From positions 1,054,001 to 1,118,000 of the forward strand of contig OX637795.1 of NCBI GenBank assembly GCA_951802425.1: DNA of 64,000 bases, read 5' to 3'. Below the pieces are notes generated by a model. It was not told the DNA's origin. It saw only the letters and a list, made by a program, of their open reading frames with translations, and made no database searches. A program made the position numbers and the translations under genes. How positions within the stretch are numbered: position 1 is the stretch's first letter; each line of letters opens with the position of its first letter. Below are positions 33,742 through 64,000 of this stretch, in pieces. Source of the DNA: Clavaria fumosa. Lineage: Eukaryota; Basidiomycota; Agaricomycetes; Agaricales; Clavariaceae.

Positions 33742-33753
33742 TAATACTAAGAT
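33643..33753 (+). promoter_or_regulatory. Element E TATA box, start site and self-priming PBS
   Basis: TATAAG (33643-33648) lies 43 nt before ATCTTAGTATT (33686-33696). The latter is perfectly complementary over 11 nt to the PBS AATACTAAGAT at 33743-33753. Relative to C/D, one base differs on each side of the pairing (C/G here, G/C there), a compensatory change that supports the pairing. Confidence 0.85.
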
Positions 33754-38743: not shown

Positions 38744-38754
38744 GAGGGGGGTGA

Positions 38755-39045: not shown

Positions 39046-39250
39046 AGCAGGTCATCAATTTTCTTCTTCCATCCATCTGCCTGTGTCTGAGCTGAGTGGT
39101 CTGTTGCAGAATCTACTCCAATGAGTCTGCTTTGGTGTTGCACAGAAGAATCATCATTGGACCCATATGTTGGCACCTTCATGTTCACATGCCTAGATTC
39201 AAAATTGACATGCTTATGTGTTGTACCATCACTGCTGCACACCCTTCAGC
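39046..39250 (-). pseudogene. Interrupted gene X, most N-terminal recognised piece
   Basis: An open stretch of about 65 codons (TTHKHVNFESRHVNMKVPTY to GWKKKIDDLL) joins in frame to the next piece after element E is removed. Upstream the frame meets TGA near 39250 and TAA shortly before, and no clear ATG is seen. The true start must be in another exon to the right or has been lost. The right-hand sequence is repeat-like, so a further rearrangement is possible. Confidence 0.65.
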
Positions 39251-41110: not shown

Positions 41111-41174
41111 ACAATGTGCATTATTCACACTTGTAGGGCTATGAAATCAATAAATATACATTTGTCAAAAAGAA

Positions 41175-43120: not shown

Positions 43121-43252
43121 TTACTTGAGGATTGTGAGGAGGCAATACGCAGGATGTAGGTAGAAGTAAGAGAATGATGATTCCAACACGTGATGTTGAT
43201 TGCTTCAAAGACGCAAGAAGTATTTCGAAGTCACGTGCTGTCGGCGTTACAT

Positions 43253-43302
43253 GTCACTATGTGACCTGCGTTGAAGTACTTCAACGCTGGTCACATAGTG
43301 AC
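43253..43302. repeat. 50-bp palindrome centred on AAGTACTT, copy 1
   Basis: GTCACTATGTGACC, one base, GCGTTGAAG, then the same in reverse complement. It is almost perfectly self-complementary over 50 bp. Related copies are at 43549-43598, 39710-39759 and twice at 60857-60945. Confidence 0.85.
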
Positions 43303-43548
43303 TTGTCACACCCCTTTCAAAGTGAATTGGTATTACCAACCAAGTCAAATGTAGAGGAAGGGTGGTTCCAGACTAAGAATTGATACCTCTGTATCGTTGC
43401 TTATTGAGTTTTCAACAGGGGTGTGCTATTGGGTAATTTTTGGAGATCTTTATACTCCCTAGAATCTTACTCCTAAGCCATTCTGTGAAGCGATGGACAA
43501 ATTGATCAAAGGCCACAGATTTGAGTTTCTTATCAGTCAGCGTTACAT

Positions 43549-43598
43549 GTCACTATGTGACCAGCGTTGAAGTACTTCAACGCAGGTCACATTGTGAC
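43549..43598. repeat. 50-bp palindrome centred on AAGTACTT, copy 2
   Basis: This is the second copy, in the right half of the tandem duplication, with one changed pair in the outer arm (TATGTGAC against ATTGTGAC). Confidence 0.85.
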
Positions 43599-44124
43599 TT
43601 GTCACACCCCTTTCAAAAAAATCAAAGTGCATCGGTATTACCAACCAAGTCAAATGTAGGGAGGGTGGTTCCAGACTAAGAATTGAGACCTCTGTATTGT
43701 TGCTTATAGAGTTTTCAATGGGGATGTGCTATTGGGTAAATTTTGAAGATCCTTATACTCCCTAGAATCTTACTCCTAAGCCATTCTGTGAAGCGATGAA
43801 TAAAACGATCAAAGGCCACAGATTTGAGTTTTCTTACCAGACCAGTACCCTGTGATATTTTCTAGACATTATTCCATACCGAAATCAACAATGGAGAACT
43901 TACCATCCCTCTACATCCTTGATGGCTTAACTTGCTTCACTTTTTCTATCCGGCCCTTCGCCAATCGGGTTGTCGCGCAATTTCTAGAGTTTGGCTGTTG
44001 TTCCAAGAGACCCTTATGACCTGGTTTGCACACATATGGGGTGAGGTGTATGCAAATCGTACGCTTTGGTTCACGGCGATAAGGCTCAAAATCAAAAAAG
44101 CTAGAGAAATCAATTTAGGAATAT

Positions 44125-47100
44125 TCATCTTCCCGGGTTCAAAACAGATTCCCAGGCAAGTTCAGCAGCGGTATGCATCCTCCTCCATAAAATAATCTGC
44201 TTCTCGGCATAGCATTTGTGCCCAGGCTTATGCTCTGTGTCTGCCCAAACAGATCTCCTCTTCCATTCGCTTTCTCGGTTTGCAAACCAAGACAAAGTCC
44301 AAGTCATCTCATGTTTCACCAATTCCAACTCTTCATTCCACCTGTCATGTCGAGCTTTCGCTCGAAGCCAGTTGACCCGGCAAACTTCTCAGCGTTAGAG
44401 CAAGTAGACGTTGAGAGGTAAATGAGCATATCTCACTTTCATTCATCCAAGGGCTTTCATTACCTCCTCCGGTCCTCCAAATCCAAGGTAGTTTATCATT
44501 TCTCTGGCCCACTCGGTTCTCTTCTATGACATCTGTGTTCACCTTCAGGTCCGAATCTGAGAGCGCTTGGAATTTGGCAAGTGTATCTGCAGGAGCACCT
44601 AAGTCAGACAAGGCAGCTCTTGCTCGCTGATATCTCCCAGCCAGCTCTTTAATCTTAGAACTGATTTGAAGAAGCTCTGCTTGACTCCTTGTCTTGCTGC
44701 TCTGTGTTTTGGATTTTCGGATGCATAATTTGTAGAGCAGTGATTTGTGTCCAATAGCTAGCCTGAGTGCATCAAGGGACTCGCCTGCCTGTGCTGTCCG
44801 AAGTTGTATTTCTTGTTCGACAATCTGGCCCCATCCATTTTTCAGGCAGAAATCTCGACCGAAAGTCGAAGGCATCAAGAGCCTGGCTTGCATGCTATTT
44901 CCCACAAGGTCTTCAAAATGATCACCTTCGTCAATCCCATCCATACCCCCTTCAGAGTCTTCATCCCCTTGCACATCTGACTCATCTTGGTTCCACTCAA
45001 AATCTCCAAGAACTGTGGAGATTTTTAAATTGTGGAGTTCGATTTTTGATTCGAGTTTGTTTAGCCGATCTACAATGCTCTGTTTTTGAGGGATGGCAAG
45101 CTTTTGCCTCTTGGACAGTTCTGTCGCAATGGAATGCCTGGGTAAGGACTTGTTACAGGGGCACTAATAAAAACACTCAAGAGCATCACTCACTGAATTT
45201 CTTCCAAAGCCATTCCTTCCATCAGCAGAGAAACTATGCCTGAAGGTAATCCAACAGTCCTCTCCTTTGTCGACAGCATTAACTGCACTTCTGCAAGAGA
45301 TGGTGCTTTATTTTTATGTCTTCAGTTTTGTATAGGGGTCTGTGGCAAGAATTGAACCCACCTTTGTCCAATTGTACATCATATATCGACAGGTGTTCTC
45401 CACGACATTCCAAAGCAACCTTCTCACTTTCTTTCCATGCTTCTCTTAAATTGCTGGGAATATTGCGATTCAGAACTTCAAAGGGTGTTTTGGTTTGCTG
45501 AACGCCTTCAACTGCTGCTTTGAATTTGGAGGAGAGGGCTTTCACTTGATTGAACATTCAGTTTGAAAAAATATCTTGTAAAAAGCTTTTAATGCTCACC
45601 AATCTTCACTAACTTCTTCCAGTTGGAATCTCGCATGTAGTCATCCAGCACTTCTTGACGATGCGCTTTGCTCATGGCTCGTATGCTGCTGGAGATCTTG
45701 TTCAAATTGGACCACAGTGTCTCCAAAATCTCTCCATCTTGTTGTCCTGCACCAGGAATAAAATTGAGCGAGAAAAGAGGAAAACAAGAAGGAATGTGTG
45801 CCCCCAAGTGGAATTTTCCAACTGCTCCTATGATCTTTGTAGCAGCTGGCATGTATAGGTATGCACTACTTTCAGCTCGTACTCTGAAGTTGCGAATCCA
45901 CTGGCAACAAACATCGTAAATGACCAATATTTCAGACATTCCTTCGGTGCGATATTTCATAGCTTGGCATATTGCATAGTCGATGTTGATGTGACTGCCA
46001 AGAGAAAAGTTGAGAAGATTCAAAGAATGTATTTGCTCTCACTTACCGCTCGCCCTTCTGAAAATCAACCGCACAATGAGGAACAAAGCATCCATGCCGA
46101 GAACAGGCGCATGCCCCAATTCCAGTGGCTTCAAGGTGACTAGAACGTGCATTGAGTGCCTGGCTAATTGCTCGATGGTTTGAGCATTTTGACTTCTAGA
46201 AGAAGTATTCAGGATACACATGTAACAGTTTTTCTGAGGCACTTACCTCACGAATATCCTTTGCCTCTAAAAGGTGCCGCTGATAATTCGAGTTTTCTAC
46301 CATATATCCTTCTCCATTAGTCAGCCACACATCTTTGTCTGCTCTGGGCATCTTCAAGTGCTCCGCAGAAAAATTTCCGTCCACAACGAGAGATCTCCGG
46401 AAAAGCCACCTTTCATCGTCAGGAATGAGGCAAGATTACTCAGGTAAGACTCACTGGTCTGGGTGACTTCTCCAATTGTCGGGAAGATTGATCCCCGGTT
46501 GAGGGCATGCTGGGCAGAAAAGAGCTAGATCGCCTGTGCCTGGTGTTATATCCACATCATGTCCATATCCAAATCGTTTTCTATTCTTCAGATCTCTCCA
46601 TTGCCGGGAGACTCTCATCAACTCTCGGTACCGATCCTAATTATCGCGATCCAGGACAATGAACAAGCAAAATCTAGAAAAGTATGAATTGGACGAACGG
46701 GGATAGTGTCTGGGAAAGCGTTAGAGGTTAGCTGCCTCAATTTGGTGTAAAATGCTCCAGCTGAAGTTTTGCACTCCATTGCATCGATATGAAAATGATC
46801 AAGAACTTGAAAAGTGAAAGCAGTTTGCAGTCTCTTGGAGCTTGCAGGAAAGAGATGGTGCTGAAGTAGTTGGATATGGTATGCTGGAGTGTTTGCACAT
46901 TTGCAGTATCGTATAGTCCTTTCACACACTCCATTGGAATGAATGATTTGCAGTTGTCTTGCATGGCAACTCTCTGAATCGACGTCACCTTCGTTGCTTG
47001 AAAACTGATCCTCATTCTCGTCCTCTCCTCTGTCTTGGTACTCTGGACAAGGGGAGCCCTTGTGCCCTAAGCAAATCACCAATCCTGCTTGTGCGAGATC

Positions 47101-47696
47101 CGATGGTAAGAAGCACATTCCATTCCATAATTCAACAGAATGGAATGGGGTATTGGCATGCCCTTTAGCACAACATGCTTTACAGGTCAGAGGCCGATAA
47201 AAGCAATCGCAACATCAAAACTTGAATTCTGTCTTGTGGCAGCCTTGGCAAGTGGTTGACGGGGATGGAGCTTCCAATCCCAAGATTTCCTCAGCGTAGA
47301 TTGATCGTAGCAACAACCATTCCTCCAGAAACACATTCTGGGCCTGAAATTATGTCAGTGGCTACACATTATGAAGGAAGCATCAACCCGTACTTTTCCT
47401 TGTTTTCGCTTCCTTGACCTCTCTACACGAATAACAGGGACAGAGCCAGGATCAACAGATGCCTCAAAGCGAAGCACTGGAGCTGGTGCAATATTGGAGG
47501 AAAAGAAGCCACTGGCAGAGGGCTCAAATTCTTCGGACAAGAGTTTGTTCGGGGAGGCGGTGTGGGATCGAGAGGAAGTCGATTTACGAACATCGTGAGC
47601 TCGTATAAATGACTTTCGGAGTCGCTTGTTATAAACTGGAACAAACTCAACCTCCTGAGCATTTTCTTTTCGTTTTGAACCAGGCAGTCCAGCCAT
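44125..47696 (-). CDS. KDZ transposase with CxC-type zinc cluster
   Basis: This is a cut-and-paste DNA transposase of the Kyakuja-Dileera-Zisupton superfamily (RNase-H fold, DDE). The ATG at about 47694-47696 starts MAGLPGSKRKENAQ. After a basic disordered N-terminus come the Cys-rich cluster (CQGCHKTEFK; CCDCFYRPLTCKACC; HANTPFHSVELWNG), CKCANTPAYHIQLLQHHLFP, FTFQVLDHFHID, RYRELMRVSRQWRDLKNRKR and GDLALFCPACPQPGINLP. The first Asp is in VVDGNFSAEH, the second in LVIYDVCCQW and the Glu in GQQDGEILETLW. HLGAHIPSCFPLFSLNF and MSKAHRQEVLDDYM are typical. Many short introns separate these. The C-terminus has Trp/Arg-rich helices (WFANRESEWKRRSVW) ending at 44125. All blocks are recoverable, so it may be intact, but I did not find its terminal inverted repeats. 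Confidence 0.85.
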
Positions 47697-47859
47697 AAGT
47701 AGAGACAGAAAGAAGTACAAGTCACGTGTGTGGTATTTGAAAGAACAAAGAACCTTCCCTTATGATGCCTTTGCTTCATAACCAAGATACAACTGTCCTA
47801 GACTCATGTGTGATGAAAATGATGAGACAGCACGACAGAAAGAAGGAACGACAGTGTGA

Positions 47860-48080: not shown

Positions 48081-48492
48081 CACCTGGGTCTCACCCCTGA
48101 CAGATCCAATTAGATACAAACACTGATGCATCGACAGTAACTAATTAGGTGATTTTTGAATCCTGGGGTGCACCGGCAGTTGCACCAGCATTTCCCAGGG
48201 ATTTTGCTGGACTTAAGCACCGCTCAAACATCCCAACGTGATGTCCCAGTTAGGATGCTTATGCGTGACCCTCAACACAAATGCACGTGCCATCAACAAA
48301 CACACACACGCATCGTCTGACACGATGCCAGCTGTGCTTTGCTCATCGTCGTCGACGATGAGCAAAGCAATCTCAATAACTATTAAAGATTTCCACTCCG
48401 TTCTTTTTGCGCCATCAACTGTTATTCAACCGCATATCAACAAATGTAATGAATCACTCGATACTCCGCAGGAAGTCCACTAAACGTCCAGC
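48081..48492 (+). repeat. Left terminal inverted repeat of the KDZ element
   Basis: These 412 bp match 54876-55287 in reverse complement. The repeat contains the last 39 nt of the transposase gene and a 33-bp perfect hairpin at 48336-48368. Confidence 0.93.
48336..48368. repeat. 33-bp perfect hairpin inside the left inverted repeat
   Basis: GCTTTGCTCATCGTCG, one T, then CGACGATGAGCAAAGC. The mirrored copy is at 55000-55032. A subterminal palindrome conserved in both ends is a candidate transposase-binding or cruciform site. Confidence 0.85.
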
Positions 48493-51400
48493 ATCATCAA
48501 GCACAACATCATCTTCATCAACAGCTGCGAGCTCGGTGTCTGAAACGTCTGAAGAATCACCCACTTCACAATTTGACAGCAATTGAGGTCCTGTGTAACC
48601 GTCCAGTGTGCAGATTGCATGGAGCCGAATGCGGTGATTCTTGTTGATTCGGTGTTGAACCCGAGCTAAAGCTTGTACCTCTGCAGCAAGTAGTGGTTGT
48701 GTCAAGCTGAGATTTCTTGAGATCAACACAAGCTGTTCGTCTTCATAGTCTATCCAGGCTGAGAGGCGTTTTACCTCACAATTGAGTCGGTCTATCTCTT
48801 CTCGTGCACGGCATATCTTGAAGAATTTTGCAGCGATCTCACGGTTGCTTGGGATGGACCAGGGTTTGAGCAGAATGTCATGGCGTGAGTACTTGAGAAG
48901 AACAAAGTCGCCAAGAGATGCATAACCAATGATGTCTGTATATCCGAGGATTGGGCGTGGAGGGCTCTGTTTCGGGGCCAGCTCATTGTACTTGTTTAGA
49001 GCAGTCCGGATAGCAGCGGAGCGGCGTGCTATGGCTTTTGAAATATGCTTGCGCATCTTGTAGCCTGATACGAATATCAATGGGAGTTCAATGAAAAAAA
49101 AAAGATGTACCTGTCCCAGAGAGATTTGCCTTTGACAATTCAAACAACCTTTGCACAACTAATCCTTCCAGAGCCTCAACTGCTCGGATAAACTGGCAAT
49201 TGTTGAGATATTGAAGGGTTCTCTGGTAGTTCTCTCCTGTGCGCACCCATCGGTCAACGATTCCCATCTTGTGCTCCAGATCCTCGACGGCATTGATCGC
49301 AAGGTTAAGTTTCCTGAGTGCTGACCTGCGTTCTGCCTCGACTCCCCTTGCATTTGTGGTTTGGATCAATGTGCTGGTTCCACGGACCGCACCAAAGTCA
49401 GCAGGTGTGTATGAGACAAAATTGAATGGTACAGAGGTTGTGGCGCTGTAACGTTGCCTGAAAGAATGTTAACTCAGTCGCACAGATGGCTATTCAACTT
49501 ACTCGGCATGATGGAGCTCTTCCAGGGCTTTGACATATGCACAATTGAGGATATCCTCCTCCGGTTCACGGCAAAGCTTACGGAGGTAGTCCAGTTCATC
49601 TTCTTGCCATTGATGAAAGACATTATCAGAGTAGCCATAAGCCTTCTGGAGGCGCTCAACTTCAGGCGTATAATTGGCAATGATCGCAAGAGCTTGCTTG
49701 TAGTTATTAAAAAGAAAATTACCTGGGATTCATGAGATATGTACGGGCATGTAGATTTGGACAGTTACATACTCAGCTCCGTGTATCGATCGAGATCCCA
49801 CTGATTGAAATGAAGATCTAAGAATTGGAGCCAATGGAAGTACGACGCATGGCGGACAAGGCGCGCAACTGAGTTTGATGCGGAAAAAATACGCTCGCAT
49901 ACTTCAAGATCTTCAATACCAAGCCCTTTGAGGTAGAGCGGGTGGAATTGTAGCTGGCAAAGGCGATTGTGCGCATGACCATGGAAAGCATTCACTGCGA
50001 AACGCAGACTATGGTGTGCAGCCTTCGCACCCAAAGAACTGTGACTGACTGTTGATGAGAATGTGCACCCGATGTCAGAGCCAATAAGTTGATCATTTCC
50101 AAAGATATTGAGAATAGTATCAACAGTCGCAAGGCCATACTTGGCGCTTAAACACGCAGTTATGAGCATGAGAAAACATAAAAGTGCTAAGACATACAGT
50201 TCCCCACTGCGACGCATCTCTGTGAATGTCTCAACTATGCCATGACGGCATGCGCTGACAAAAACACCTGTCTGCTCAAAGAAGTTGATGGCCTCCTCCC
50301 GAACACTTTTCGCAGCGGTCCAGTGCTCAGCACACGGTTGGATCGCACCATTTCCTGATGATGCTTCCTTGGGAGGTCTTGATCTCGCCGAAACTTCATC
50401 CTTGAATCTGTCGACTTGCTCGGGCGTGATGTGATAGCTGCTTACGAACACACGTGTATCGGTTTCACCAGCTGCTCGTTGACGACGGAGGGAAAAATTC
50501 CCGTCAATTGCATGAAGGCGACTAGGCTGAAGGACTGGCTCGCCGTCAACCTGCATGCCTTTTGTGAGGGATTATTTCATCTATATCCAAGTCACTATTC
50601 ATACCTCATAACTGCAAGCTGGGCAACTATAGCGAATACGCCATTCACGGCCCTCACGTCCTAATACTTGATCCACATCTTTCTTAATGTAACGTAAGAT
50701 GGCAAGGTACACATCAAAGGCAGCAGATAACTGCTTGCGAAAATACGAGACATAAGTAATCTATATTTAAAACAAAGTAAGCCACGGAATGATGGATCGC
50801 AAAGGAAACGTTACATTATTGAGTGTACAGAGTACCTTTGCCATGGCTTGGACACTGAAGGAGGATTGTCGCCGCCGAAGTTGATGGTACAATTCAAGCA
50901 CATCAAGAGAAATGGCAGAGGTCGGTTCAAGGGGTGAACACCCTAGATATCCCTGCGAGATGAGTGCCGCATTTGCTAGCTGCCCCTCCATTTGTTTGAT
51001 GGCAAGAGCACTATCAAAATCTCCATTACAGTGTGAGGGTGTGCTCGAAACACACATTTAAATGCTTACCTCGAAGCCCAACAGCTCTCACATGAAACAC
51101 ATGGCCTGGATCTGCCGTTTCAACAGGCATTTGGCGATGTCTCCATGCCAGGAGTGCGGCCACAAGTTCAGGCAGTTGATCGGCCCATGCGGCATGATGA
51201 GCAGCGGTCCTATCTGCCCATGTTGGTCGGGAGCGACTGGGCTGACATCCCATAACACTAATGAATTTGAGATTTGAACAAATGAGAGGACGAGAGGCAT
51301 GCGTACTAAACAATAGGATCCAAGTCATCATCATCGGCAGCGTCAATCCACCCCTCCGTAGCATGGCCTTGCTCATCATCTAAAAATTCTTCGCCAGACA

Positions 51401-51651
51401 GTATGCCTGCATCGATGCCACTCATTAATGTGGCTTGTGCGAGTTGCTGATGAGCAGTTGATGATAATTCTGTCCAGTATATCGTGAACAAGACATTGCG
51501 TACACAAGGATATAGGCATACTAGCTTTCCGTTCTTCTGTTCGCCTTCGTTTCTGGACAACTTGCTCTAGAGACAGTGTAGCACGATGGTTTGAAGTTGA
51601 GACATGGACACGTCTTGACGTCGTGATTTGGAGTTTGGAGCGTTTCGCCAT
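48454..51651 (-). CDS. KDZ transposase of the complete element
   Basis: The ATG at 51649-51651 starts MAKRSKLQITTSRRVHVSTS. Exons then give an acidic segment (DDEQGHATEGWIDAADDDD), ADQLPELVAALLAWRHRQMP, GYLGCSPLEPTSAISLDVLE, LYHQLRRRQSSFSVQAMAKV and the small zinc-binding pair CPACSYE. The catalytic core follows: first Asp in LHAIDGNFSLRR, second in LIGSDIGCTFSST, and FHGHAHNRLCQLQFHPLY leading to the Glu in GIEDLEVCERIFSASNSVA. The C-terminus carries MGIVDRWVRTGENYQRTLQY, VVQRLFELSKANLSGTGYKM and RSAAIRTALNKYNELAP, all standard KDZ blocks. It ends DFLRSIE at 48454, inside the inverted repeat. Introns are short GT-AG. No internal stop was seen in the exons I joined, so it is probably functional. 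Confidence 0.88.
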
Positions 51652-51763
51652 CAATCTGCTGTGCTCGCTGACTGACAATCCAATCACTGATTGACATCAA
51701 CACCACTCACAGCTCACAGCGTTCTGCGTTATCTACCACTTGCTCAAACTACACTACACCCAG
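51652..51763. promoter_or_regulatory. Divergent promoter between transposase and SPxK gene
   Basis: A 112-bp spacer separates two start codons facing away from each other. A CCAAT box (GACAATCCAATCACTG) lies near 51682. No clear TATA. Shared regulation of the two genes is likely by geometry. Confidence 0.5.
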
Positions 51764-53327
51764 ATGCGAATCGTCACTCCGTCTGGAACTCAACCTCTTG
51801 GTTTGGCTGGGGATGAACAAAAGTCAGCCATTGTGAGCTTATCATATTCACCCGTTTACTTTGGACTCACAGTTGATACAGGCTACGATCAGCCTCACAC
51901 TTTCAGCGACCATCAACCCAGCAAGCAAGAAGGACAATTTACCTGTGCAAGTTACGTTGTCAGGAATCACAAACGACGACGTCAGCACGGCAACCTTGCA
52001 CTCGCTGATCAACACGTTTCGCGTTGAGATTGCCCTACCGGTTCAGAATCGCCTTAACACACCAGCAGTGATAGTGAATGAGGGCATGAGAAAGGACTCA
52101 GGTGAGAATCACTTTTGATTCAAGAAGCGCCGGCTTATCCAATCGCAGCCAACGAAGCTCTATCTGATGACGCTGCACAGGCTGTCAGCGCTGTCAGCAT
52201 ATCCAATGAAGACTTATCGACACCACTCCTATCGCTTTCGCAATCTCTCCTTGATGCACTAGCAGGTCCTCTCGATGAACTTCATGATCTCGATGGTCCA
52301 GACAATATACAAACCGTGGCCATTCCTGCCTCGCTTGAAGAAAATCAGTTGAGTAATCTGGTTGATCTATCGCTTCTCATATATTCATTTTACACCTGCT
52401 AGACCCTCAGACGAACTCTCATTTGCGGTTCCAACATCTACTCCTTTGCCCCGATCTATTCAACTTCCTCACGATACGGCTACGACCTTGCCTGTCACAC
52501 CTGTAGCTAAACTGAAAAAAAACCTACCTGTGACGCCTGCACAATGTGCTCCGAGCCCCGCTATGATACCTGTGCCATGCACTCCCTTGGTGATGTCTTT
52601 GCCGCTCGCACCTGCTGCATCGAAACCAGATTTCCCAACTGCAACAAAAGCTAAGGGGAAGCGGCGCCTACATGTCATGACTGCTGAGGAAGCTTTCAAG
52701 AGGATGGGTTCACCAGATCCTTTGAAATCTCCCTGCCGGCCATCTCCTACTCGTTGCCCAGGATCACCCACAAAAGTCATGCTGGCATGCCCAGATTCAC
52801 CAGTAAAGGTCACGCAGGCGCCTCCATCTCCTACTCGTCGCCCAGGATCGCCCACAAAAGTCATGCCGGCATGCCCAGAGTCACCAGTAAAGGTCACGCA
52901 GGCGCCTCCATCTCCTACTCGTCGCCCAGGATCACCCACAAAAGTCATGCCGGCACGCCCAGAGTCACCAGTAAAGGTCATGCAGGCGCCTCCGGCTGTG
53001 GTGACAGATCAATGTACGGGTTCTACCAGTCCTGTGTCCAGCAGTACCCCCTTTTCTCCGGCAATGTCATATTTCAAAAACTTGAATCCGTTGACTCCAG
53101 GACGGTCCCCTTCTCCATTGCCTGCAGTCCCAGCTATTGTTGCAGAGATCCTTAAACATCTGAAGGCACCGCCTATCGCTACGGCTGAGGTTCGACGCTG
53201 TCTTGCACTTGTTCCAGGTTACGAGCAGTCCATGTGGATTTTCCGGTTGAAGCAATGTGGCGTTGAGGAAAACAAGGACCTTCTTAGCGTTATGTCAAGT
53301 TTTGTTGATGACCCTTTTTTCTTTTAA
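51764..53327 (+). CDS. Proline-rich SPxK-repeat protein of the KDZ element
   Basis: The ATG at 51764-51766 (MRIVTPSGTQPLG) is joined by a 40-nt intron to LIQATISLTLSATINPASKK, a beta-rich stretch (VQVTLSGITNDDVSTATLHS). Two more introns lead to a low-complexity Ser/Thr/Pro region with three exact-length 28-residue repeats built on SPTK and SPVK motifs. The C-terminal domain (PAIVAEILKHLKAPPIATAE; RCLALVPGYEQSMWIFRLKQ) ends DDPFFF at 53327. SPxK motifs are proline-directed (CDK) kinase sites and resemble the SPKK DNA-binding motifs of histone H1, so DNA binding or cell-cycle control is possible; both are inference. No family recognised. Exon ends are approximate. Confidence 0.65.
52740..52991 (+). 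repeat. Three 84-bp coding tandem repeats
   Basis: Units start at 52740, 52824 and 52908 (CCATCTCCTACTCG...) and keep the reading frame (28 codons each). They are nearly identical, so the array is young and its copy number may vary between element copies. Confidence 0.92.
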
Positions 53328-53468
53328 TCTCTGTCTTGTCATTGCTCGCTGAAACACCCTCAGTTGTCGAAGGGGAGCATTATTTCTTCTGATTCTTTGT
53401 TTATATTTCACGTGATTCTGTTGATTAGTCGTGCTCTCCGAAGTTTTTTTTTAATTACAACTTAAGCT

Positions 53469-54850
53469 ATGCGCTCTCCTGGCTCACCCTATCGTCGGGC
53501 AAAACTAACTCCTGCCCAGAAAGAAGCTCGCCATGCCAAGGCTCTTGTGCTCGCTAGCAATGTCAAACAGGCCCGCAATGACATTGAAAACCAGGTTTCT
53601 GCAGTTGCCGTGAACAATGGAAGGTAAAAATTCATATCCCATACCCAAGGAAATACTCATTACCCTGTCCAGGTCGAAAGACTGGGTTAAAAGGCAGCTG
53701 TTCATTACTGGGAATGTCCAGAAACGCGCCCCAAATGCCTGGAATGGCTATATTGCTGGTAATCTGAAGGCGCACAACATGAGTTAGTCGTTCTCTTTAT
53801 CTTGCAAGGCTCTGTGCCCTAATAGATTGCCAAGACCTTCCGGCAGGTGAACGAAAGTCACTCCCACAATTCCTCGCCAGTGATGAAGGTGCAAAGTTCA
53901 AGGCTGAGTGGGAGGCAATGCCAGAGAATGAGAAAGACGTATACCGCTCAGATATCAAGAATATGAGAATTTCCAAGCAAACTATTGTCCGCACAAACCC
54001 AAGATCTGTGCTTACTGAAGTTCATAATACTTTTAACCGGATGGAAAATGAAGTAAGTATATTTTTCAATGCCATGAGCTGACAAGTAAATATCTTCGGT
54101 GACAGTGGAACACGGTTGAGAACAAGACAGGTGGAGAAGGCCTGTACATTTTTGTGCGGAAGGATCTCAATCAATACCACGCACCCAAAGTCCATTACAC
54201 GCCGCTTGTTGAAAAATTCTTCAAGGATGTGATGAGCATTGAGCCTGAGGAGATGGCGTTGAGGATGGAGGCGTACATGGTTGGAGGCTGCGGTAAGTTG
54301 TACACCTTTTGTCCTATACTCGACTGATAAGCGGTTGTAGCTAAAGGCAGGACCATCAAATCCACACGGACCACCGTCGCATTGATAAGTGCATGCCGCA
54401 AGCTCATTCAAGATGGTCTCAGTATGTCTTCCAAACTCTTTCTCACCTAAATGACACACTACAATTGTAAGTTCAGATCAAATTCTCAAGGAAGAAGGTG
54501 TTGACCCAATCCCAATCCCAATGAATTATGAAAATTACGAGGCTAGAATTGTCGAAGCCCATGGTGTCGTGCTGGAGGGATGGCCAAATGGTCCTGTCCG
54601 CAACCCTGGTGCTATTGGAGGAGGCCGCGGAGCTGTCCAGAAGCTACTCACAGCGCTGACAAATGGTGAATGTCAATGGATCAAACTGAGCGAGGAACAG
54701 CACGCATCACGCATCAAGGCCAATGAAGCAGCTGTCGCTCGGGGTGAGTCTGTTTATAAGCCACGAAAGAAGTCAGGGGGCACTGGCAAAGATAGTTTCA
54801 AGAGTGCGGAGCTCATAGACTCAGATGATGATGAGCACAACAACGTGTAG
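53469..54850 (+). CDS. HMG-box-like DNA-binding protein of the KDZ element
   Basis: The ATG at 53469-53471 starts MRSPGSPYRRAKLTPAQKEA. After an intron, WVKRQLFITGNVQKRAPNAW then NGYIAGNLKAHNM opens a region like an HMG box (basic, P-N-A-W-N-x-Y/F start). A second intron leads to LPQFLASDEGAKFKAEWEAM then PENEKDVY, the typical W...P.EK..Y end. A C-terminal domain follows (YHAPKVHYTPLVEKFFKDVM; RTTVALISACRKLIQDGL; GPVRNPGAIGGGRGAVQKLL), then a basic linker and acidic tail (ELIDSDDDEHNNV). Short GT-AG introns; no premature stop seen. I recall HMG-type genes accompanying fungal KDZ elements. It may bind element ends or bend DNA for transposition. Confidence 0.65.
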
Positions 54851-54875
54851 GAGGTGGTCTGAGACGGCACAGATA

Positions 54876-55287
54876 GCTGGACATTTAGTGGACTTCCTGC
54901 GGAGTATCGAGTGATTCATTACATTTGTTGATATGTGGTTGAATAACAGTTGATGGCGCAAAAAGAACGGAGTGGAAATCTTTAATAGTTATTGAGATTG
55001 CTTTGCTCATCGTCGACGACGATGAGCAAAGCACAGCCGGCATCGTGTCAGACGATGCATGTGTGTGTTTGTTGATGGCACGTGCATTTGTGTTGAGGGT
55101 CACGCATAAGCATCCTAACTGGGACATCACGTTGGGATGTTTGAGCGGTGCTTAAGTCCAGCAAAATCCCTGGGAAATGCTGGTGCAACTGCCGGTGCAC
55201 CCCAGGATTCAAAAATCACCTAATTAGTTACTGTCGATGCATCAGTGTTTGTATCTAATTGGATCTGTCAGGGGTGAGACCCAGGTG
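54876..55287 (-). repeat. Right terminal inverted repeat of the KDZ element
   Basis: This is the reverse complement of 48081-48492 with about four substitutions. It begins 26 nt after the stop of the HMG-like gene and contains the mirrored hairpin at 55000-55032. Confidence 0.93.
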
Positions 55288-55295: not shown

Positions 55296-56518
55296 AGAGT
55301 GAGTACCTGGCTGTAACCCCAATCATCTCATCGTCATCTCTCCAGAGAAACTCAAGTAGCAAGGACGCTTCGCTTTAGCTTCAAGTTCCTCCCTTCGACT
55401 TCTCTTTGCAGTCCCCTTTCCTGTGATGTCCCCCACAGCAGGTGCAGACATGTTTGAACCTGCAGTTCGTAGTAGACAAGCTCCGTCTCACTTCGCTGAT
55501 GCGGCTAGCGACACTCCTGCCGACCCACCCGATATCACAACACTTGGTGAGGGCCCACAAACGACAACCCAAACACCACCAAGCCCCCCTACATCAACAT
55601 GTGCTGATACCCGTTTGGATCCAAAGAGTCCGAGGACATAATCAGTGTATTTGGCGAGTTCTCGCTCTCGATGCGGGAAGGCGAGTGGCAACAACGGTGC
55701 GTTGCCGTGCAAAGACCCAGTCTCCTGCTGTCCTGACTGATTTTGACGGTTTGGATGGACCATGTCGAAGCTCAATGTCCCCGACACGTTCAATGGTTTG
55801 AGTCTTGTCACAAGTTGCATAGGCTCCCGAGAGCACAATGTCGAGGTTGACCGCTTTGCCCAAGAGGACGTTCGTCCACTCTGAATCTGGGAACCGAGGG
55901 ACTCCTGGTGTGGTGGAGAGGTGAAGTTTGGCGTTTTTGATGTCGGCAGCGAAGTTAATGATGAGTCGGCAAGTGAGTTCAAGACTTGGGCTGAGTTAAT
56001 TCGAAGCAAGTTTTGCCCGCTGTGCCCAGGGATAGAACTCTTCGTCAACGGGCTGCTTTCGAAGCAACCGGTCTCCTAATTCAGGTGAGTTGCTCCGTCG
56101 CCGTTTGTCTCTGGCTTCGCGGGTCTCGCCCTGCTCGCCGTTTGTCTCTGGCTCCGCGGGTCTCGCCCTGCTCGCCGAGTTGATCCTCTCCAGGTTCGAG
56201 ATCCTGTCCATCAGGGTCTTCTGCATCTTCGCCACTCTCCGAGGCTGTGCGGAGAATTCTCCCATGCTCCTCAAGTGAGTCGAGATATACTTCATACGCT
56301 GAGTTGACCTGTTCTTCCGATGCGACAGGTCCTGTTTCCCGTAATACGTTGAAGATCTGTGTCACTGCCGCTCCCTTGGTGATTTTCCCATCTCGAAAGC
56401 GCTTGACGATTTCGTCGCATTGCACATTTGTTGATGGGGCGCTTGGTAAGTCTGAGGCGGACACAGTTCTAGACGTTGGAGGAGGGTTGGTTCCGACTGC
56501 ATCTGAGGTTGAGGTCAT
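55296..56518 (-). pseudogene. Gag-like ORF of a decayed retroelement
   Basis: The ATG at 56516-56518 starts MTSTSDAVGTNPPPTSRTVS. Next come IVKRFRDGKITKGAAVTQIF and YEVYLDSLEEHG, a block I recall from mushroom retroelement Gag-like proteins. After a frameshift caused by a 37-bp duplication come YPWAQRAKL, DSEWTNVLLGKAVNLDIVLS, VGDIELRHGPSKPSKSVRTA-GDW and, in another frame, LPLAFPHRERELAKY. A zinc-knuckle-like CTCCGGHHRKGDCKEK lies near 55410. Several frame changes show that it is dead. It lies directly beside the KDZ element, whose other flank holds the pol-like fragment. Assignment to tyrosine-recombinase (DIRS-like) elements is tentative. Confidence 0.55.
56102..56175. repeat. 37-bp tandem duplication in the gag-like gene
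   Basis: Two copies (56102-56138 and 56139-56175) differ at one position (TTCGCG against TCCGCG). The length is not a multiple of three, so it shifts the reading frame. Confidence 0.9.
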
Positions 56519-57046
56519 GTAAACCGATTGAGAATGAAGTTCTCAATAAAGTGCTCGCGATATGTATGTGCTGCGATACGTGTGTGCTGCAATGCGTGTG
56601 TGCTAACGGAATGAGGAGGCTCAGTAACACTACCGGCTACTGGAGATGAAGGAGGCGCACCTGGTGAGCAAGAGGAGAGGCTAGAGAGCCTTTCCCTTCG
56701 CTGCTCACCAGGGTAGGGCAAGCAGGGGTAAAGTCTGGGCTGAGACGTTTGCCGCAGCGAGCGGGATACAGATAGTCCGGGCGCGGGTGAACCGAGTGTT
56801 TCACCCAGCGTGGACAATGGGAGCCTCGCCCAGCGCGGGCATGCGGAGGCGAAGCGACGCTTGTCGCTGTGTGGGCTACCAGCGTCGCGTGTGCGAACGG
56901 TATTGCCGTGCATGATTGAACTACTGTAAACAAACTTTAAAATACGACACATGATTGTGGTTCATAACACAAGCTGGCTCTCTCGAAATTCTGAAATGCT
57001 TTGGAACCAACACGTATTTACCTATTCTCATCTATCCTATTCTCAT
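56519..57046. other. Noncoding leader of the gag-like gene and downstream of TET
   Basis: This is GC-rich, with TGTGTGCTGCRAT-type short repeats near 56566-56604, and is probably the retroelement 5' region. Next to the TET stop is a 14-15 bp tandem repeat, CTATTCTCATCTATC (about 57022-57050). No gene is supported. Confidence 0.5.
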
Positions 57047-58484
57047 CTATGAGATATAGTCAGATCTCTTTGGCCATGCAGGCCTCGGAAAATCCAGTCT
57101 GTCATGGACAGTGTCCTTGACGAAATGAGCAATGCATACCCTGTCCCCTTCCCATTGACGAACTTCATGGAAGAAAACCTTCCCACAGAGGGAGACCATT
57201 GTCCCAGGAGGATATGAGAGGGAAACTCCTAACTCTTGAACATCAAAAGTGGTTCCATGGTGTGCCCCAGCACTGAGAAGGAGGTCAAAGTGCGTTGGAC
57301 AACCACCTTCATCCCTGTGACGAGGAGTCACCCGATTCACGATCACCTGCATTGCAGTGTATACCGATGGCCATAACTCGACATTTTGATACTTTTGAGC
57401 CATTTCGACACCCTCTTTGATCTTGCCTATGGCTGCGAGCCCATAGTCATATAGTTCTGGAGTAATTAGTGCTGTGACACAGTTGCAGAGGAGCTCTACA
57501 TCGGCAATTGCTGTCATGAATGACCGGCCATGCAATGCCTGCAAACTTGTAGATGCTCTGAGCTTCTCATGAGGTTGCTATTAGAGATCATCAGTTTGTG
57601 CTATTGGATGTCTCATTTGACGCACATCTCGTAGTTGCATAAACCAACCAGCAGAGAATGCCAGAACACCAGCGCCAAAGACAGTGTTGGCTGGAGGGTT
57701 CAAACCCTGCAACCTCCAAGGCTTATCTCGGCCTGATGTCTTGTTCACAAGATTACTCTTGATCAGGGCTATAGCTCTGTTGCAGTCAGCCTAAATATTT
57801 CCATATAAGCAAAGATCAATTAAACATGAGCTCTGCTCACGATTCGCGATGTTGAGATGATACCAGGCAGATGCCATAATATGATGTGGTTGAACTTGTC
57901 CACTACAATTGCTGGCTCATCGATGTATCCTGAGCCATCTGGGATTCTGAATTTCTTCTTCAGACGAGCCAACTCATTATCTATCCTTGACTCATAGTCT
58001 CCTGCCATATTGAGCTCCTTGACGTTGCTGATAAATCTTTCGACATCCCAATCTGTCTGAACTGAGAATGTAATTAGTTAACAGAGCCATGCAGCAACTA
58101 GGGACCAAGGGTATTTCAGTGCTCCACGTACTAGGGTTGAGCAAAGCATATGCAGCAGTAAGCGCTATCCTTTGGAAGTCTGCTTCTCCAAGCGGGGTGT
58201 GGTCACTCAAGTCTAAAGCTGTCTTCAGTTCCTCAAGTTCAGCCCAAACTTTGAGCCTGGGATAAAATTGAGGTTATATTAAAAAATGACAGTTGGAGGA
58301 TCACATACTGTTTCTTCTTCAGGTTCTCTGTCACATTGCCACAATGCCTACGCAAAATATCTTTCAACTGGGCCCAAATAGAGTCTTTTAGAGTGGAGGG
58401 TCCTGCCAGTGGGAAGGTCGATGAAGGTGCCAAAGGAGTGGAATTACCCGTCGTTTCCGATGCCTGTTTACGACGTCGCTTCAT
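57047..58484 (-). CDS. TET/JBP-family 2-oxoglutarate/Fe(II) dioxygenase
   Basis: TET/JBP enzymes oxidise 5-methylcytosine (or thymine) in DNA in the nucleus. The ATG at 58482-58484 starts MKRRRKQASETTGNSTPLAP, a basic N-terminus. Exons follow: IWAQLKDILRRHCGNVTENL; VWAELEELKTALDLSDHTPL; DWDVERFISNVKELN; EPAIVVDKFNHIILWHLPGI (the pre-catalytic block seen in fungal TETs); NTVFGAGVLAFSAGWFMQLR. The last exon (57047-57544) carries LWPSVYTAMQVIVNRVTPRH then the HxD iron motif HRDEG, FDLLLSAGAHHGT, LGVSLSYPPGTMVSLCGKVF, the distal His in FFHEVRQWEGDR, and the Arg for 2-oxoglutarate in GDRVC, followed by VHDRL. All metal and cosubstrate residues are present and no premature stop was seen, so it looks active. 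About 420 aa, usual for fungal members. It lies immediately 3' of a KDZ transposase fragment on the same strand. Confidence 0.82.
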
Positions 58485-58598: not shown

Positions 58599-58669
58599 TG
58601 TGAGACGAAGGGCATTCATTCACCCATTTGTACAGTACAAATGGGTGAATGAATGCCCTTCGTCTCACA
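58599..58669. repeat. 71-bp perfect palindrome upstream of the TET gene
   Basis: Arms 58599-58633 and 58635-58669 are exact reverse complements (35 bp) around a single A; the outer arm reads GTGAGACGAAGGGCATTC. It lies 115 nt upstream of the TET start codon. Such perfection implies recent origin or selection. Confidence 0.9.
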
Positions 58670-58748: not shown

Positions 58749-59785
58749 TTACACCACAAGATACACAACAACGAAAGTGAGCCTTGAACATGCCACAAGT
58801 TGAGATGAATGGTTTGCCTGAGATGAATGGTTTGCCTGCAGTTCAATGGCTTCTTCAAAGAGAGATAAAGTGGCCCATTTCTTCTCATATTTGCTGATCT
58901 CAATCTGGAGGCGCCTTCGCTTTTCCTCCAACTCCTTTTTATCAGAGAGTGAGGGTTGCCTCAAAGACTGTGTATAGGCAACCAAAGAGGCCCTATTTTG
59001 TTGTGAATGACAGGCAATGGAACTTTGCAATACGACTCACTGAGTGGCTTCTATGCTCAATCCTAGAGCCAAGAGATTAGATATGCCAGATAGATTTCCA
59101 GCAGCATGATGTTTTTGAGAAAGCTCCAGTAGAACCTCAGCACAACCTGGTTCTGTGTAAAAGTGTATGCCATTAGCCAGGCAATATAGCAACTATAGAT
59201 ATGTTTTCCAAGTACTGGCCTTTCACATTTGTGACATCGTACACCGAAAGAGCATCTCCCCGTTGAGTCATTGCCTTCTCCTCTAGGTCCTTCCATTCTA
59301 ATACCCATGTTGGTTCAAGCCGTTTCGTCAACTCATCCAGGGCTAACTTCTTGTCCTCTCTTTCAGTCATTGCTTTTTTTAACTTGGTGACAATAGATTG
59401 TGCTGTGCCAAGTCATCAGCAAAGACACATGTGAGAATATGGGGATTTGCTTACATGCTCTAGACATTTTCTTCCAATTGGAATCCTGCATGTAGCTGTC
59501 CAGTATCTCCTGCCGATGTGGTTGAGACATGCCCCTTGTATGGCTTGCTGCCTTATTAAGTGATGACCAAAGGCTTTCCAATACTTCCCCATCCAATTGC
59601 CCCACACCTTGCACAAAGTTCAAAGAGAACTGTGCAAAACATTTTTGGATGTGAGCACCTAAGTGGAATTTTCCAACTGCAGTTATCACTTCAAGATCCT
59701 CCCGCACATACAAGTGCCCACTGGCATCAACTCGCTGCTGAAAATTGATGTGCCACTCACATCCAACATCATATACAAAAATGAC
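58749..59785 (-). pseudogene. KDZ transposase fragment, 5'-truncated
   Basis: The minus strand begins abruptly inside the core: VYDVGCEWHINFQQR (second Asp), GKFHLGAHIQKCFAQFSLNF, GQLDGEVLESLWSSLNKAAS (Glu) and MSQPHRQEILDSYM. It then continues through DKKLALDELTKRLEP and WVLEWKDLEEKAMTQRGDAL to a helical tail (KKELEEKRRRLQIEISKYEK). The zinc cluster and first Asp are missing. The 5' edge near 59785 joins a Gag-like ORF. It is closest to the KDZ transposase at 44125-47696. The TET gene follows on the same strand, consistent with a KDZ element that carried TET as cargo. Confidence 0.8.
58804..58840. repeat. 18-bp direct repeat in the KDZ fragment tail
   Basis: GAGATGAATGGTTTGCCT is present twice in tandem near 58804-58840. 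It adds six codons in frame to the transposase tail. Confidence 0.8.
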
Positions 59786-60237
59786 TCTCTTGGCAAGTAA
59801 GACGGCTGAGGAGTGAGCGGGTTTTGGTCGTTGGATGGAGGTTGGTCGTCTGGTGTGGGATCCTGGTTTCCTTGATCTCCGGGCTGCGAACTAATTGTAT
59901 GGGATCGGGCACTTGCAGCTTCTCTGAAACGATCGAAGTTATCGAGCATCTTGGTGTAGGATTCAAGCGCTTTAAGAAACTCGGGCTGTTCGAACGTTTC
60001 GTGTGGGATGATCTGTTGGAACTGTAGGATGGCTGCAACCTTCGTGAGACGACCTCCGCGGTATTGTTGGACGACTTCATAACACTTTCGACCAACTTCG
60101 GTGTCTGCACCCTGAAAATTTTGGTCTTGTGCGTCGATAGACGGTCCAGCAACGTCAATCGATGCCCCTTGGTTCGATGATTGCTGTCTATTCGCTTGTG
60201 ATGTAGATGGATGTGCTGTATCATCACTCCTTGACAT
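59786..60237 (-). pseudogene. Second Gag-like fragment
   Basis: The ATG at 60235-60237 starts MSRSDDTAHPSTSQANRQQS. It shares its layout with the Gag-like ORF at 56518: CYEVVQQYRGGRLTKVAAIL corresponds to IVKRFRDGKITKGAAVTQIF, then LKALESYTKMLDNFDRF. It ends in a Pro/Asp/Gln-rich tail (DPTPDDQPPSNDQNP) and runs without a stop into the KDZ fragment in another frame. It is the 5' part of a separate element copy. Confidence 0.5.
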
Positions 60238-62667
60238 ATTTGAGAATATGATTCGATTGGAGGTACGACGATATAGCGCTAAGATGATACAGGTGTAACA
60301 CTAGGGAAAAGGGAGTCATAGTGAGAGCGAGTGAGGAGGGCATACAGAGACGACATACACGAGGGGACACCGAGAGCGAGAGAGGAGGTAGAGAGGCTGG
60401 CTCGGTGTCCCTCGTGTTAAGAGTAATGGTGATGTCTCAAAGGAATAGCAGGGGCTAAGTACGAAAAGGAAATGGAAGTGGAGGATATGAGAGTTAAACG
60501 AGGTAGAAGAGTAAACATAGGTAAGCAAGAGGAAAGGGAAGGAGAAGCGAGGTTAAGTTAAGAAGGAGAGACGAAGAGGGAGGTCTCTGAGTCGCGCGGG
60601 GCGAGAGGAGAGATGCGGGGCATCTGGACGCATGGAGCGTGAGGCGAGTGGATCGCAATATGTCAAGGACATAAGACGCACAGGGCGTGAGAGGCACGGA
60701 TGCCGGATGAGTGCTCTGGGAGTGCTTGTCACAGATTAGACTCTAGTAAACTTGTTTAAAGCCGATTAAAGTCACATGATTGGATGGACATATTGAATTG
60801 AACAGACTCTCAGTCGGTTACTTGCGATTGGAGGTCGGTGAGTCACACGCAGAGGTGTCACACTATGTGACCATCGATGAAGTACTTCAACGGCGGTCAC
60901 ACTGTGACCAGCGTCGAAGTACTTCAACGCCAGTCACACTGTGACCATTCTTGAAGTTCTCTTTTTTTGCCTTCAGACTTTTTGTAGACGAACGGTCGCC
61001 TTCTCAATTGCAACTGGTGAGGGACAGTGCTTCTGGCATTGCAGAGTAATGTCAGAGGCACTGCCCCTCTCTACGCAAGGCTATTCTATTCATCTCGGCT
61101 CTCGCATTTTCTGTTATTATTATTATCAAGACGAGCTACTCTCACCTTCAGAAGGAAGCCATGTTTGGTGTGAAAACTAGTGCTGGTACACTGTAACAAA
61201 GCAAAGTGCGAACCTCGTAGGCAGTGACATTTAAAGCAGAGGTCACGTGATTTTTTTCACCAACCAGAATTTCTTCCAAATTTTTAAGTTGTTGTACAAT
61301 TCTTGGTTATAACGTAGAAAAGATTGAATAAAAAAAGTGTAAGAGTGCAAATGTATGTAGGGCCATTTGGAGAGGACTGAGTGGCCAGTTCAGTCCTCCC
61401 CGAGCCCGGAGAAAGAAGCGCTATCTAAATATGGGTGCATCGAAATTCTGTAGATATGCTAAGGGAAACACCCATGAGATGAGCACAGAGATATGTGAGA
61501 TGTAGATACTACGTACTTTGAAAAGGCTTCTATGGAGGTTCCACTCGGTCTCGTCTGTAGGGCTAGTACTTCCTTCTTCGGAGGCTTGCGATTTCTTGTT
61601 GGTAGGGCTAGTAATTAAGGTCAGTACGAGTAACAAAAGTACGCAATACGTACCGTTTGCTAGACCCAACTCGGGTCTTCAAAATGCCCTGAATTGGAAC
61701 AATCCGGTGAGTACGCGCAACTGACAATGGCAATAATTCCAGGTGGAAACAAAAGCCTATTATCTTCAAGGGGTGAGATGAGGCCAATCAGCATCAAGAT
61801 CAGCATTCAATCTCATCGGCAAGCATAATGCCCCCCCCCAGAGCCAGTCCTAGGAGGCAGAATGACTCGCGCCAGCATATAGACGCAAACTCAACTCTGA
61901 AGGCGCACAGTGCCCCCTCCCCTTGACTCGTGCTAGCCTGACTGCAAAGCCCATACCCTGAAAAATAGATGAGTAGTATGGACTGATAGGAAACTGCTCA
62001 CCTGAGAAAAAGAGCCTCGGACCTTGGAGAAGGAGTATTGGACCTCAGAGAAAGAGTGTCGGAAGAGGGAGTCGCAATGCCCGCAGCACAAGAATAAGGC
62101 GTATCCAGCACTGCTCTGCAGGTGCAGTGCTGGATGCGTCGCATTCCTATGGGAAGAGTGCATGGAAGAGAGAAGAAAGTGACGGATCTCTATGTTTCAG
62201 TTTATTTATGTTATCATCACATGATGAGTGCTCAACGCATTGTCCATCACATGATGAACACGCGATGCGTTGTCTGTCACTGTTTCACAGATGAGCGCTG
62301 AGCACGCGACGCGTTCACAGTCACTCAAAAAAATAATCGTGTTTAAATGTGTTTACAGTAGTCCAATCAGTAGCAGCCTGGCCCCATCCTTTCTTCTCGC
62401 CCTCTTACCAGCTGTACCTTTCAGCTTCTCACTTTGGTACATTCTTTTGACTGCTAGTGTACTCATTTGCGAGCACCCGCCTGCCACTCCCTCTACTTAG
62501 CCTACTGTTTGCCCTACACGACTTGTGAGCTGAGCCCCCCCAGGCGTCATCAGATGCCGGGGGTGGCTGCTTTACCACTACTTATTACATCATTTGCATG
62601 AATTTGTTATAGCTTATGTAACTACACTGCAAACATTCTTGCCAAACGAAACTGAGAATCTCTAATA
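60238..62667. other. Noncoding region with decayed repeats
   Basis: No gene is supported in about 2.4 kb. 60240-60720 is purine-rich (GAGAGCGAG, GAGGAAAGG) and is probably the leader of the Gag-like element. A double palindrome lies at 60857-60945. Around 62216-62330 a short repeat recurs (CATCACATGATGA, ACGCGATGCGTTG). A hydrophobic minus-strand ORF at 61421-61669 was judged unsupported. Confidence 0.5.
60857..60945. repeat. Double AAGTACTT palindrome
   Basis: Two copies of the dispersed 50-bp palindrome overlap by sharing one GTCACACTGTGACC arm. Each centre reads GAAGTACTTCAACG. Confidence 0.85.
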
Positions 62668-64000
62668 ATGGCTTCTCGGTCTCAAAAGCGACGGCTTCCA
62701 ACAAAAGAAGAGCTTGTGAATAAGAAGCGACATCTTTCAGCTGCTAATGATGTATGTGCTCTTTTGCTGTTGCAGAACTAGTACAAATGTCTCCCAGCGT
62801 TGCTACATGTGCCTTAATGGCAATAAACCCTTGATCATCTGCTACAACTGTCCTCGCACACTATGCTCAAATTGCATAACAATCCCGGCTTTTCCATCTT
62901 CAAATTTAGTATTCTTTTGTCTCAATTGCCATGAACGATTCTTTGCATCACAGCCATATAAAGTGAGGGTCTTATGTTCCAATCCTCCTTCTAACCTGAA
63001 CAATGCCCAGGGCCTCCATATCCATGACACCACCATCCCCCCCACAGTAGACGGTGATATCAATGTTGCGGCTTTTCGTCCTGTTCATGACCAAGGGGTG
63101 AAGATCAAAGGTCACTTTCAGATGACTGCACAGTCCCAGGTTATCAACACGAAACTGGTTATTGTCCACTTTTACCTCTCCGGCTTGCGATTGAATGGAT
63201 CTCCTGCCAAGATTCTTTCTGAGTACATGTCAGCATTCCTGGATCAAGAGGTCCTAGTTAACAGAGAGATCTCGTTTGACCTGTCCTCTGACATGCTGAT
63301 TTCTGAGCATGCCAATCGAATCCAGAACAATGTCAGAGAGATTATTGGCCAATGGTAAGTGGACTGCTATCACTTGGAAAATTTCTAACACTGCGCAACA
63401 GCTCAACTACCCGAGTCGTCATATTCATAAGTACACAGTTGCACAAGGATACTGGAGACCCAATGCTGGGTCCAAACACGTCTGGCAGTGTTACAGAGGT
63501 GAGAGATGGGTAACCATTTTTAAAAACACTGCCTTTACATTATTCCTAGTTCATGCAAGCACTCCTCCCCAAGCCGCTATTCCCGATCAATACAGAAGCT
63601 CACTTATGGTTCTTGACTGGTCTCTCTCTTGTCAATAAGTCATCGAGTTATAACAGTTTCTTGATTAGTTCCAGCCAGTGGGTCTGTCTCACTCCCCAAA
63701 CTTCTGCTCTGACTTAATATTTCAGCCTTAATCTTTCTCATATCATTGGCTTCACCAATGCGGAGCTGCAGCCCTGCATAATCTCCCCCCTTGTCCTTTC
63801 ATATGCCCAGCATGTTCTTGTTGAAGGCCTTCCTTTCTTCAACTTCAATCGCCAATTTCTTCCAACAATGACTTCAATTTGCCGGCACACAAACATCTTT
63901 CATATCTTCAGAGATGTCGGGCTTGTGACAGCAAAACCCCTTTGGTGTGCAAGGGTAGAGCGAAGGGTCTGTTCAGTTTCTAATGCTAGTCGATAGTCCT
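62668..64000 (+). CDS. Zinc-finger protein of a fungal multicopy family, partial
   Basis: The ATG at 62668-62670 (MASRSQKRRLPTKEELVNKK) opens a basic start. The next exon (open from 62747) has a PHD/RING-like cluster: CYMCLNGNKPLIICYNC, CSNCIT, FFCLNCH. After a central region (NTKLVIVHFYLSGLRLNG; ILSEYMSAFLDQEVLVNREI), a 45-nt intron joins to STTRVVIFIS. A second intron joins to EFMQALLPKPLFPINTEAHL then WFLTGLSLV. The last visible exon has HIIGFTNAELQPCIISPLVL, QHVLVEGLPFFNFNRQFLPT and ICRHTNIFHIFRDVG. I recall this layout from large families in Agaricomycetes of unknown function. The first junction (about 62750-62785) would need an intron of only 24-30 nt, so it may be damaged. The 3' end is outside the window. 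Confidence 0.6.

Follow-up and report, generated by a model that had tools for sequence, protein, structure and literature searches.

A TET/JBP dioxygenase gene lies beside a truncated KDZ transposase piece on the same strand in a 64,000-nucleotide stretch of the Clavaria fumosa genome (here called the window, C2:1054001-1118000; the genome surveyed comprises 48.8 Mb in 17 contigs). The earlier note, made from the letters of the window, had taken the gene for cargo that a KDZ transposon retained after its transposase was truncated. The locus raises the question of whether TET is the leftover of a dead element or a part of one that still works. Our reading, to which we assign a probability of roughly three in four, is that TET is a working component of a giant KDZ-class cut-and-paste transposon which is Kyakuja-like in its ends and target site duplications (TSDs), and which measures 38-41 kb in four of its seven young copies and 48-49 kb in the other three. 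The features discussed below are collected in Table 1, and single positions in the text are those of the window unless a contig is named.

Table 1. Features of the TET-bearing element and its insertions, in window coordinates.
Feature	Position	Strand	Remarks
TET/JBP gene	57047-58484	minus	profile match, splice model, CcTET alignment
TET exons (n=5)	58484-58309, 58256-58132, 58061-57841, 57790-57626, 57577-57047	minus	
Giant TET-bearing KDZ (Kyakuja-like) element, part within the window	39238-64000	minus	strand is that of TET and KDZ A
Terminal inverted repeat arm, ~4.1 kb	39238-43334		other arm ends at C2:1141268
KDZ A transposase gene	44125-47759 (outer limits approximate)	minus	likely TET partner
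Nested KDZ element, 7.2 kb	48081-55287		~413-bp inverted repeats, 8-bp duplication TTCTGCGA
KDZ B piece, 986 bp	58818-59803	minus	KDZ domain 59477-59797; fragment of another KDZ family
Probable truncated LTR and gag-like start	59804-60780	minus	fused to KDZ B
Gene Y, ORFs with C4-type (PHD/B-box-like) finger	62720-63635	plus	finger related to that of gene X

The TET frame is open over 405 codons from the ATG at 58484 to the stop at 57047, and all four introns have GT..AG borders, which bears out the earlier impression of an intact dioxygenase; its position and strand had also been given correctly. The last exon (57050-57577, minus strand) scores 54.5 bits against the Pfam Tet_JBP profile PF12851, for which the curated cut-off is 34.9, so the profile search returned this family and not another 2OG oxygenase family. 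The HxD, distal His and 2OG-binding Arg named in the earlier note are all there: the translation contains RHRDEGG, FFHEV and GDRVCIAHF, each aligned with CcTET of Coprinopsis cinerea, and we take the Arg of the last motif to be the one that binds 2OG. CcTET is the nearest solved relative of the window protein (8jkk, 7vpn; phmmer E ~8e-21). The main alignment of the two spans residues 214-396 only, and in the 8jkk alignment the window protein has the same residues as CcTET at His326 and Asp328 of the HxD motif and at Gly331 and Asp337. In CcTET, Gly331 and Asp337 facilitate 6mA recognition and catalysis, and Asp337 is essential on 5mC (PMC12730594). Judged by its sequence, the window gene is an intact-looking TET/JBP dioxygenase gene with predicted activity in 5mC oxidation. 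A protein database search with the spliced TET query returned 5447 candidates and none at E ≤ 0.001, PADLOC gave no match for the TET exon, and a single-sequence AlphaFold model of the TET exon alone was of too low quality to be informative (pLDDT 49).

The earlier note had overlooked that TET sits inside a large repeat. The full-length gene recurs as DNA at nine other places with 97-100% identity and at a tenth with 92%, and an eleventh further copy, in an element on C6, is split by an insertion. When the 20-kb surroundings of ten TET copies were compared with the window, the shared block reached far past the gene. This repeat has a sharp edge at 39238 that is common to the sister copies, with the terminus CACACCCTTCAGCG and the 7-bp TSD ACTGCTG. 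The same end recurs inverted at the far ends of paired elements, the two ends reading CACA..TGTG, and a 34-base terminus pattern with at most three mismatches occurs 49 times in the genome, against zero for a backward control. The element of the window extends past the window end to C2:1141268 and comprises 48,031 bp including nested insertions; its part at C2:1118001-1137160 is known from match coordinates and 72 bases read. Since the sister copies part from the window sequence exactly at 63914, a further insertion probably begins at 63915 and runs out of the window.

Fifteen paired elements of 8.75 to 49.3 kb were compared. Fourteen have an exact 7-bp target duplication, the exception being C2:3746386-3771173, which has none, and of 210 mismatched left-right flank pairs none shared 7 bp. 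With KDZ content tallied from 150 listed matches of 185, TET and KDZ occur together in 11 of the 15 (31-49 kb), KDZ alone in two (24.8 and 32.7 kb) and neither in two; among the 15, no copies without KDZ sequence were found except short or TET-less ones. Seven young TET-bearing copies (38.3, 38.4, 40.0, 40.6, 48.0, 48.3 and 49.3 kb) are ~98.5-99.8% identical across the main shared blocks. Because precise 7-bp duplications go together with near-identical young copies, we infer that a unit of ~40 kb moved recently by transposition.

Clusters of ~50-bp palindromes of the type GTCACA..TGTGAC, with GAAGTACTTC, are found at 39700-39760, 43252-43312, 43548-43608 and 60856-60945; palindromes of this type are also present in other element arms and are candidate transposase-binding sites. 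Outside the element, the window holds LTR-type repeats of ~5-6 kb at 33450-39047, 26089-31049 and 11289-17183, the first of which has at least 11 copies at 97-98% among the matches listed.

The KDZ match that the earlier note had seen beside TET, on its strand, is present. TET is indeed borne by a transposon, and one of KDZ class, but the adjacent truncated piece, KDZ B, belongs to another KDZ family. Among the matches listed, with 40 of 332 candidates scored, exactly this stretch recurs at 98-99% identity in at least 14 other places, and three further copies reach 90-91%. In the older sister copies homology beside TET ends near 58566, part of the upstream region is inverted in some, and KDZ B was not found beside TET. 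KDZ B was rejected as the transposase of the carrier for its family and for this absence. Several copies of the KDZ B family lie near contig ends (for example C1:137692, C4:88201 and C12:94555), as does a diverged TET-like family with 344-codon frames, and both are perhaps subtelomeric. Between TET and KDZ B, just upstream of the gene, an inverted repeat with two perfectly matched 35-bp arms and a 1-base loop (58599-58669) is kept in young sisters and possibly represents two fused transposon ends. The LTR/gag-like stretch fused to KDZ B matches C4:1699882-1700851 at 86% and in part again at C4:1704706, that is, two direct copies 4.8 kb apart in an LTR-element-like arrangement. Of the Gag-like relics proposed around TET, what stands is this LTR-like repeat at 60780-59800, whereas neither the ORFs there nor those at 56084-56542 gave a Pfam hit.

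Two further KDZ matches had escaped notice, one 3' of TET (45592-46038) and one within the nested 7.2-kb element (49795-50145). The former is the KDZ domain of KDZ A, which also carries a CxC2 cluster at 46621-47214 (PF18758, 102.8 bits; PF18803, 93.4 bits) and lies on the strand of TET with an open frame in the window copy, its frames being read block-wise. Because this open transposase gene stands 3' of it on the same strand, TET is not simply cargo that outlived a dead transposase, and the earlier claim of cargo kept beside a truncated one is wrong or incomplete. The simple reading of a dead element with retained cargo was rejected with KDZ A open in the window; two sister copies have stops. 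TET and KDZ A are parted by the nested element, which is missing from the sister copies aligned across the site (one sister copy shows the empty site with a single base difference, of CpG type), and minus this insertion KDZ A stands ~4 kb 3' of TET. The order of genes in other copies upholds the link for KDZ A, whose region was detected by DNA in all 11 TET-bearing paired elements, but not for KDZ B. In the compact TET-KDZ pairs at C1:5231668, C3:486937, C4:3978399 and C10:3204406, the KDZ gene is itself a relative of KDZ A, with ~70% identity in DNA.

The association extends across the genome, where a profile search of the contigs gave at least 64 Tet_JBP and at least 185 KDZ matches. Measured against the 150 KDZ matches listed out of 185, a KDZ neighbour is no more than 5 kb away for 34 of the 64 TET matches; 1000 random placements, made with approximate contig sizes, gave 2.1 on average and never more than 7. 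When distances up to 12 kb are allowed, 26 of the 64 have as their nearest listed KDZ one that lies downstream in opposite orientation, 1.4-1.9 kb off in 25 of these, a layout unlike that of the window, and 24 have no listed KDZ at all.

Several other explanations of the repeat have to be weighed against a working TET transposon. The copies are large and near identical, as segmental duplications would be, but this origin is extremely improbable and was rejected on the 7-bp target duplications, found in 14 of 15 elements whose precise ends lie at unrelated flanks. It is also unlikely that TET is a passenger, a host gene caught in a composite repeat that was amplified for other reasons. The mosaic make-up of the element, with KDZ B, the probable LTR/gag relic and other insertions, would suit such a history, as would the four paired elements of 15 that have no TET, one of them the 32.7-kb element with KDZ. 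However, TET is retained in 11 of the 12 paired elements longer than 31 kb, it has been kept across lineages only 66-69% alike in TET DNA, and the genome also holds compact TET-KDZ pairs apart from these elements. A passenger would also not be expected to show the constraint seen against the C9 copy (90-92% identical), where dS is 0.198, dN 0.044 and dN/dS ~0.22, and where exclusion of CpG transitions leaves 39 synonymous changes and 24 nonsynonymous ones at several-fold more numerous sites. TET is under purifying selection along this branch, the longest measured, and clearly so only there, since dN/dS in other pairs is 0.29-0.77 for young against old copies and 0.44-1.17 for old against old, with each pair contributing 15-31 changes. 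Seven of 11 copies, the split C6 copy not counted, retain the complete frame with its four introns; of the other four, two are frameshifted, one has a stop, and the C9 copy itself combines a stop late in the frame with an altered splice site.

Slightly better odds, though still poor, attach to mobilisation of the element in trans by another KDZ family, with KDZ A a relic and TET perhaps serving host regulation. The 185 KDZ matches in the genome represent many potential donors, and stops occur in one or two KDZ A blocks of the C5 and C7 copies, two of the five young sisters. Against a relic stand the open KDZ A frame in the window copy and the presence of the KDZ A region in every TET-bearing paired element. 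The selection data on KDZ A, taken from blocks picked for being open in the window copy, lean the same way: relative to the old copy at C1:92-94, all four blocks have dN/dS of 0.20-0.43, from a small number of changes, although one block reaches 1.63 against another old copy and values above 1 occur in several comparisons between young copies, where differences are very few. We prefer the reading in which TET and KDZ A belong to one working transposon.

CpG decay, from which the earlier note had concluded that retroelements in the window carry 5-methylcytosine, is indeed pronounced, and the KDZ/TET element itself shows it. Among the private substitutions of six young copies, 164 of 248 are C>T (or G>A) at CpG. 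On the TET side these make up 88 of 130, where CpG accounts for 664 of 4100 C+G bases, and on the KDZ A side 76 of 118, where it accounts for 346 of 3026. This excess of CpG-type changes indicates that the carrier element is most likely methylated at CpG by the host, in whose genome PF00145 (C5 DNA methyltransferase) matches two loci in pieces, some with stops if read without introns. It further suggests that TET leaves its carrier open to methylation in the long term; activity that is brief or exerted in trans would suit the data better than permanent protection. In Laccaria and Coprinopsis, 5hmC and 5fC are enriched at transposable elements and TET genes (PMC8889193), which is consistent with TET products on such elements.

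TET and KDZ A are not the only genes that the element carries. Sister elements contain a gene, here called X, whose protein begins with MARTKQSAKRSSG or a variant and continues into a C4-type zinc finger; the copy of the window's own element begins just past the window, at C2:1125665, where its start was read. The start of the product resembles the histone H3 tail (ARTKQSAKRSSG). The H3 tail itself reads ARTKQTARKSTG, and uncharacterised mushroom proteins with H3-like starts exist. Six variants of the gene X start share 7-10 of 12 residues with the tail, and among the 6388 open 12-mers that begin with ATG in 267 kb, only five have at least six H3 identities, every one of them a gene X start. 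Searches with the gene X start (47 matches) and with the H3 stretch (17 matches) yielded 55 loci with H3-like starts matching from residue 1, 21 of them at E ≤ 0.001, a tally that omits two of the 47 not starting at residue 1 and seven of the 17 that hit fragments of histone H3-type genes. The weaker loci that were read, on C8 and C12 and at C3:1763820, C7:1338479, C1:4493428 and C1:3631538, are all H3-like. For 44 of the 55 starts a KDZ or TET match is found no farther than 10 kb away (random mean 4.0, maximum 11 in 500 draws), and nine of the ten further loci contributed by the H3-stretch query lie upstream of a co-oriented TET match, at a distance of 3.5-9.2 kb. Conversely, 17 of the 64 TET matches have an H3-like gene within 10 kb. 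Gene X is present in nine of the 11 TET-bearing paired elements, three of these by weak matches (E ~0.2) of which one was confirmed by its start, and the copies read are partly broken, with a stop inside the finger of one (L033).

The finger of gene Y, in the window, is 37% identical to that of gene X (E 8e-6), and no H3-like start was seen when one was looked for in gene Y. No Pfam model scored above its cut-off for either finger; the best sub-threshold matches are PHD_ash2p_like for X (12.6 bits) and zf-B_box (16.2 bits) and PHD (13.4 bits) for Y. An older sister (L036, 3635-4606) has, between genes Y and X, an ORF that by eye resembles a Harbinger-type transposase and has no Pfam match. The gene X protein, a putative histone-H3 mimic, would probably act on the histone side of silencing.

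A mechanism can be proposed that starts from the observed ends, 7-bp TSDs, long inverted repeats, co-carriage of TET with KDZ A, purifying selection on TET over the longest branch and CpG-type mutation. The host would methylate the element at CpG, and TET, acting for a short time and probably in trans, would oxidise 5mC, possibly also 6mA, on the DNA of the element. During a limited period of expression, this oxidation could make the promoter of the transposase gene and the inverted-repeat ends accessible again, and KDZ A would make staggered cuts at these ends and insert the whole unit. The protein with the H3-like tail and PHD-like finger would probably compete for readers or writers of the H3 tail. 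The TET-oxidation half of this scheme follows a proposal in PMC12730594, and the histone half is our own. Taken together, KDZ/TET transposons, both giant ones with 4-kb inverted repeats and compact ones, may carry a two-layer anti-silencing kit of a 5mC oxidase and an H3-tail decoy with a PHD-like finger, an idea we put forward tentatively and at somewhat less than even odds.

According to PMC12730594, the notion that TET frees its transposon from methylation has so far had no experimental test. In this genome near-identical recent copies coexist that are CpG-mutated and have the TET frame intact or not, so that copy methylation, TET integrity and mobility become directly comparable. The H3-tail-like gene suggests a double attack on chromatin silencing, a form of counter-defence that would be new among transposons.

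Among known systems, Starships are large cargo-bearing fungal elements with a tyrosine-recombinase captain; the element described here is likewise giant and cargo-bearing, but has a KDZ transposase and long inverted repeats instead. At the level of the enzyme, the likeness is to CcTET (7vpn, 7w5p, 8jkk), to judge from the matched HxD, Gly331 and Asp337. The closest relatives as elements are the TET-bearing Kyakuja of Agaricomycotina, which combine a KDZ transposase and TET with 7-bp TSDs and 5'-CA..TG-3' ends (Kojima 2025, PMC12730594); the window's element shares the KDZ gene, the AG-type TET residues, the 7-bp TSDs and the CA..TG ends. It differs in its 4.1-kb terminal inverted repeats (TIRs), for which two Laccaria Kyakuja families are reported to have no counterpart, a report on those two families that does not make absence of TIRs a defining trait of the group (PMC12730594). 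On account of this difference we call the element Kyakuja-like and treat it as a variant. Inverted repeats are not new in themselves in the KDZ group, since KDZ or Plavaka elements of Marasmius oreades have a characterised TIR motif (PMC8290104). Zisupton and Dileera are also KDZ elements, with an 8-bp TSD (PMC12730594), a length matched by the nested element, whereas that of the giant element is 7 bp. No giant TET-bearing KDZ form with long TIRs was found in the literature searched, and a search for H3 mimics in transposons, which covered mostly non-subscription papers, gave nothing on point; PMC12730594 has, as far as we found, no mention of a co-carried H3-tail-like gene. TET-bearing Kyakuja are thus already known, and what the Clavaria element apparently adds to them is a giant form with long terminal inverted repeats and an H3-tail-like companion gene.
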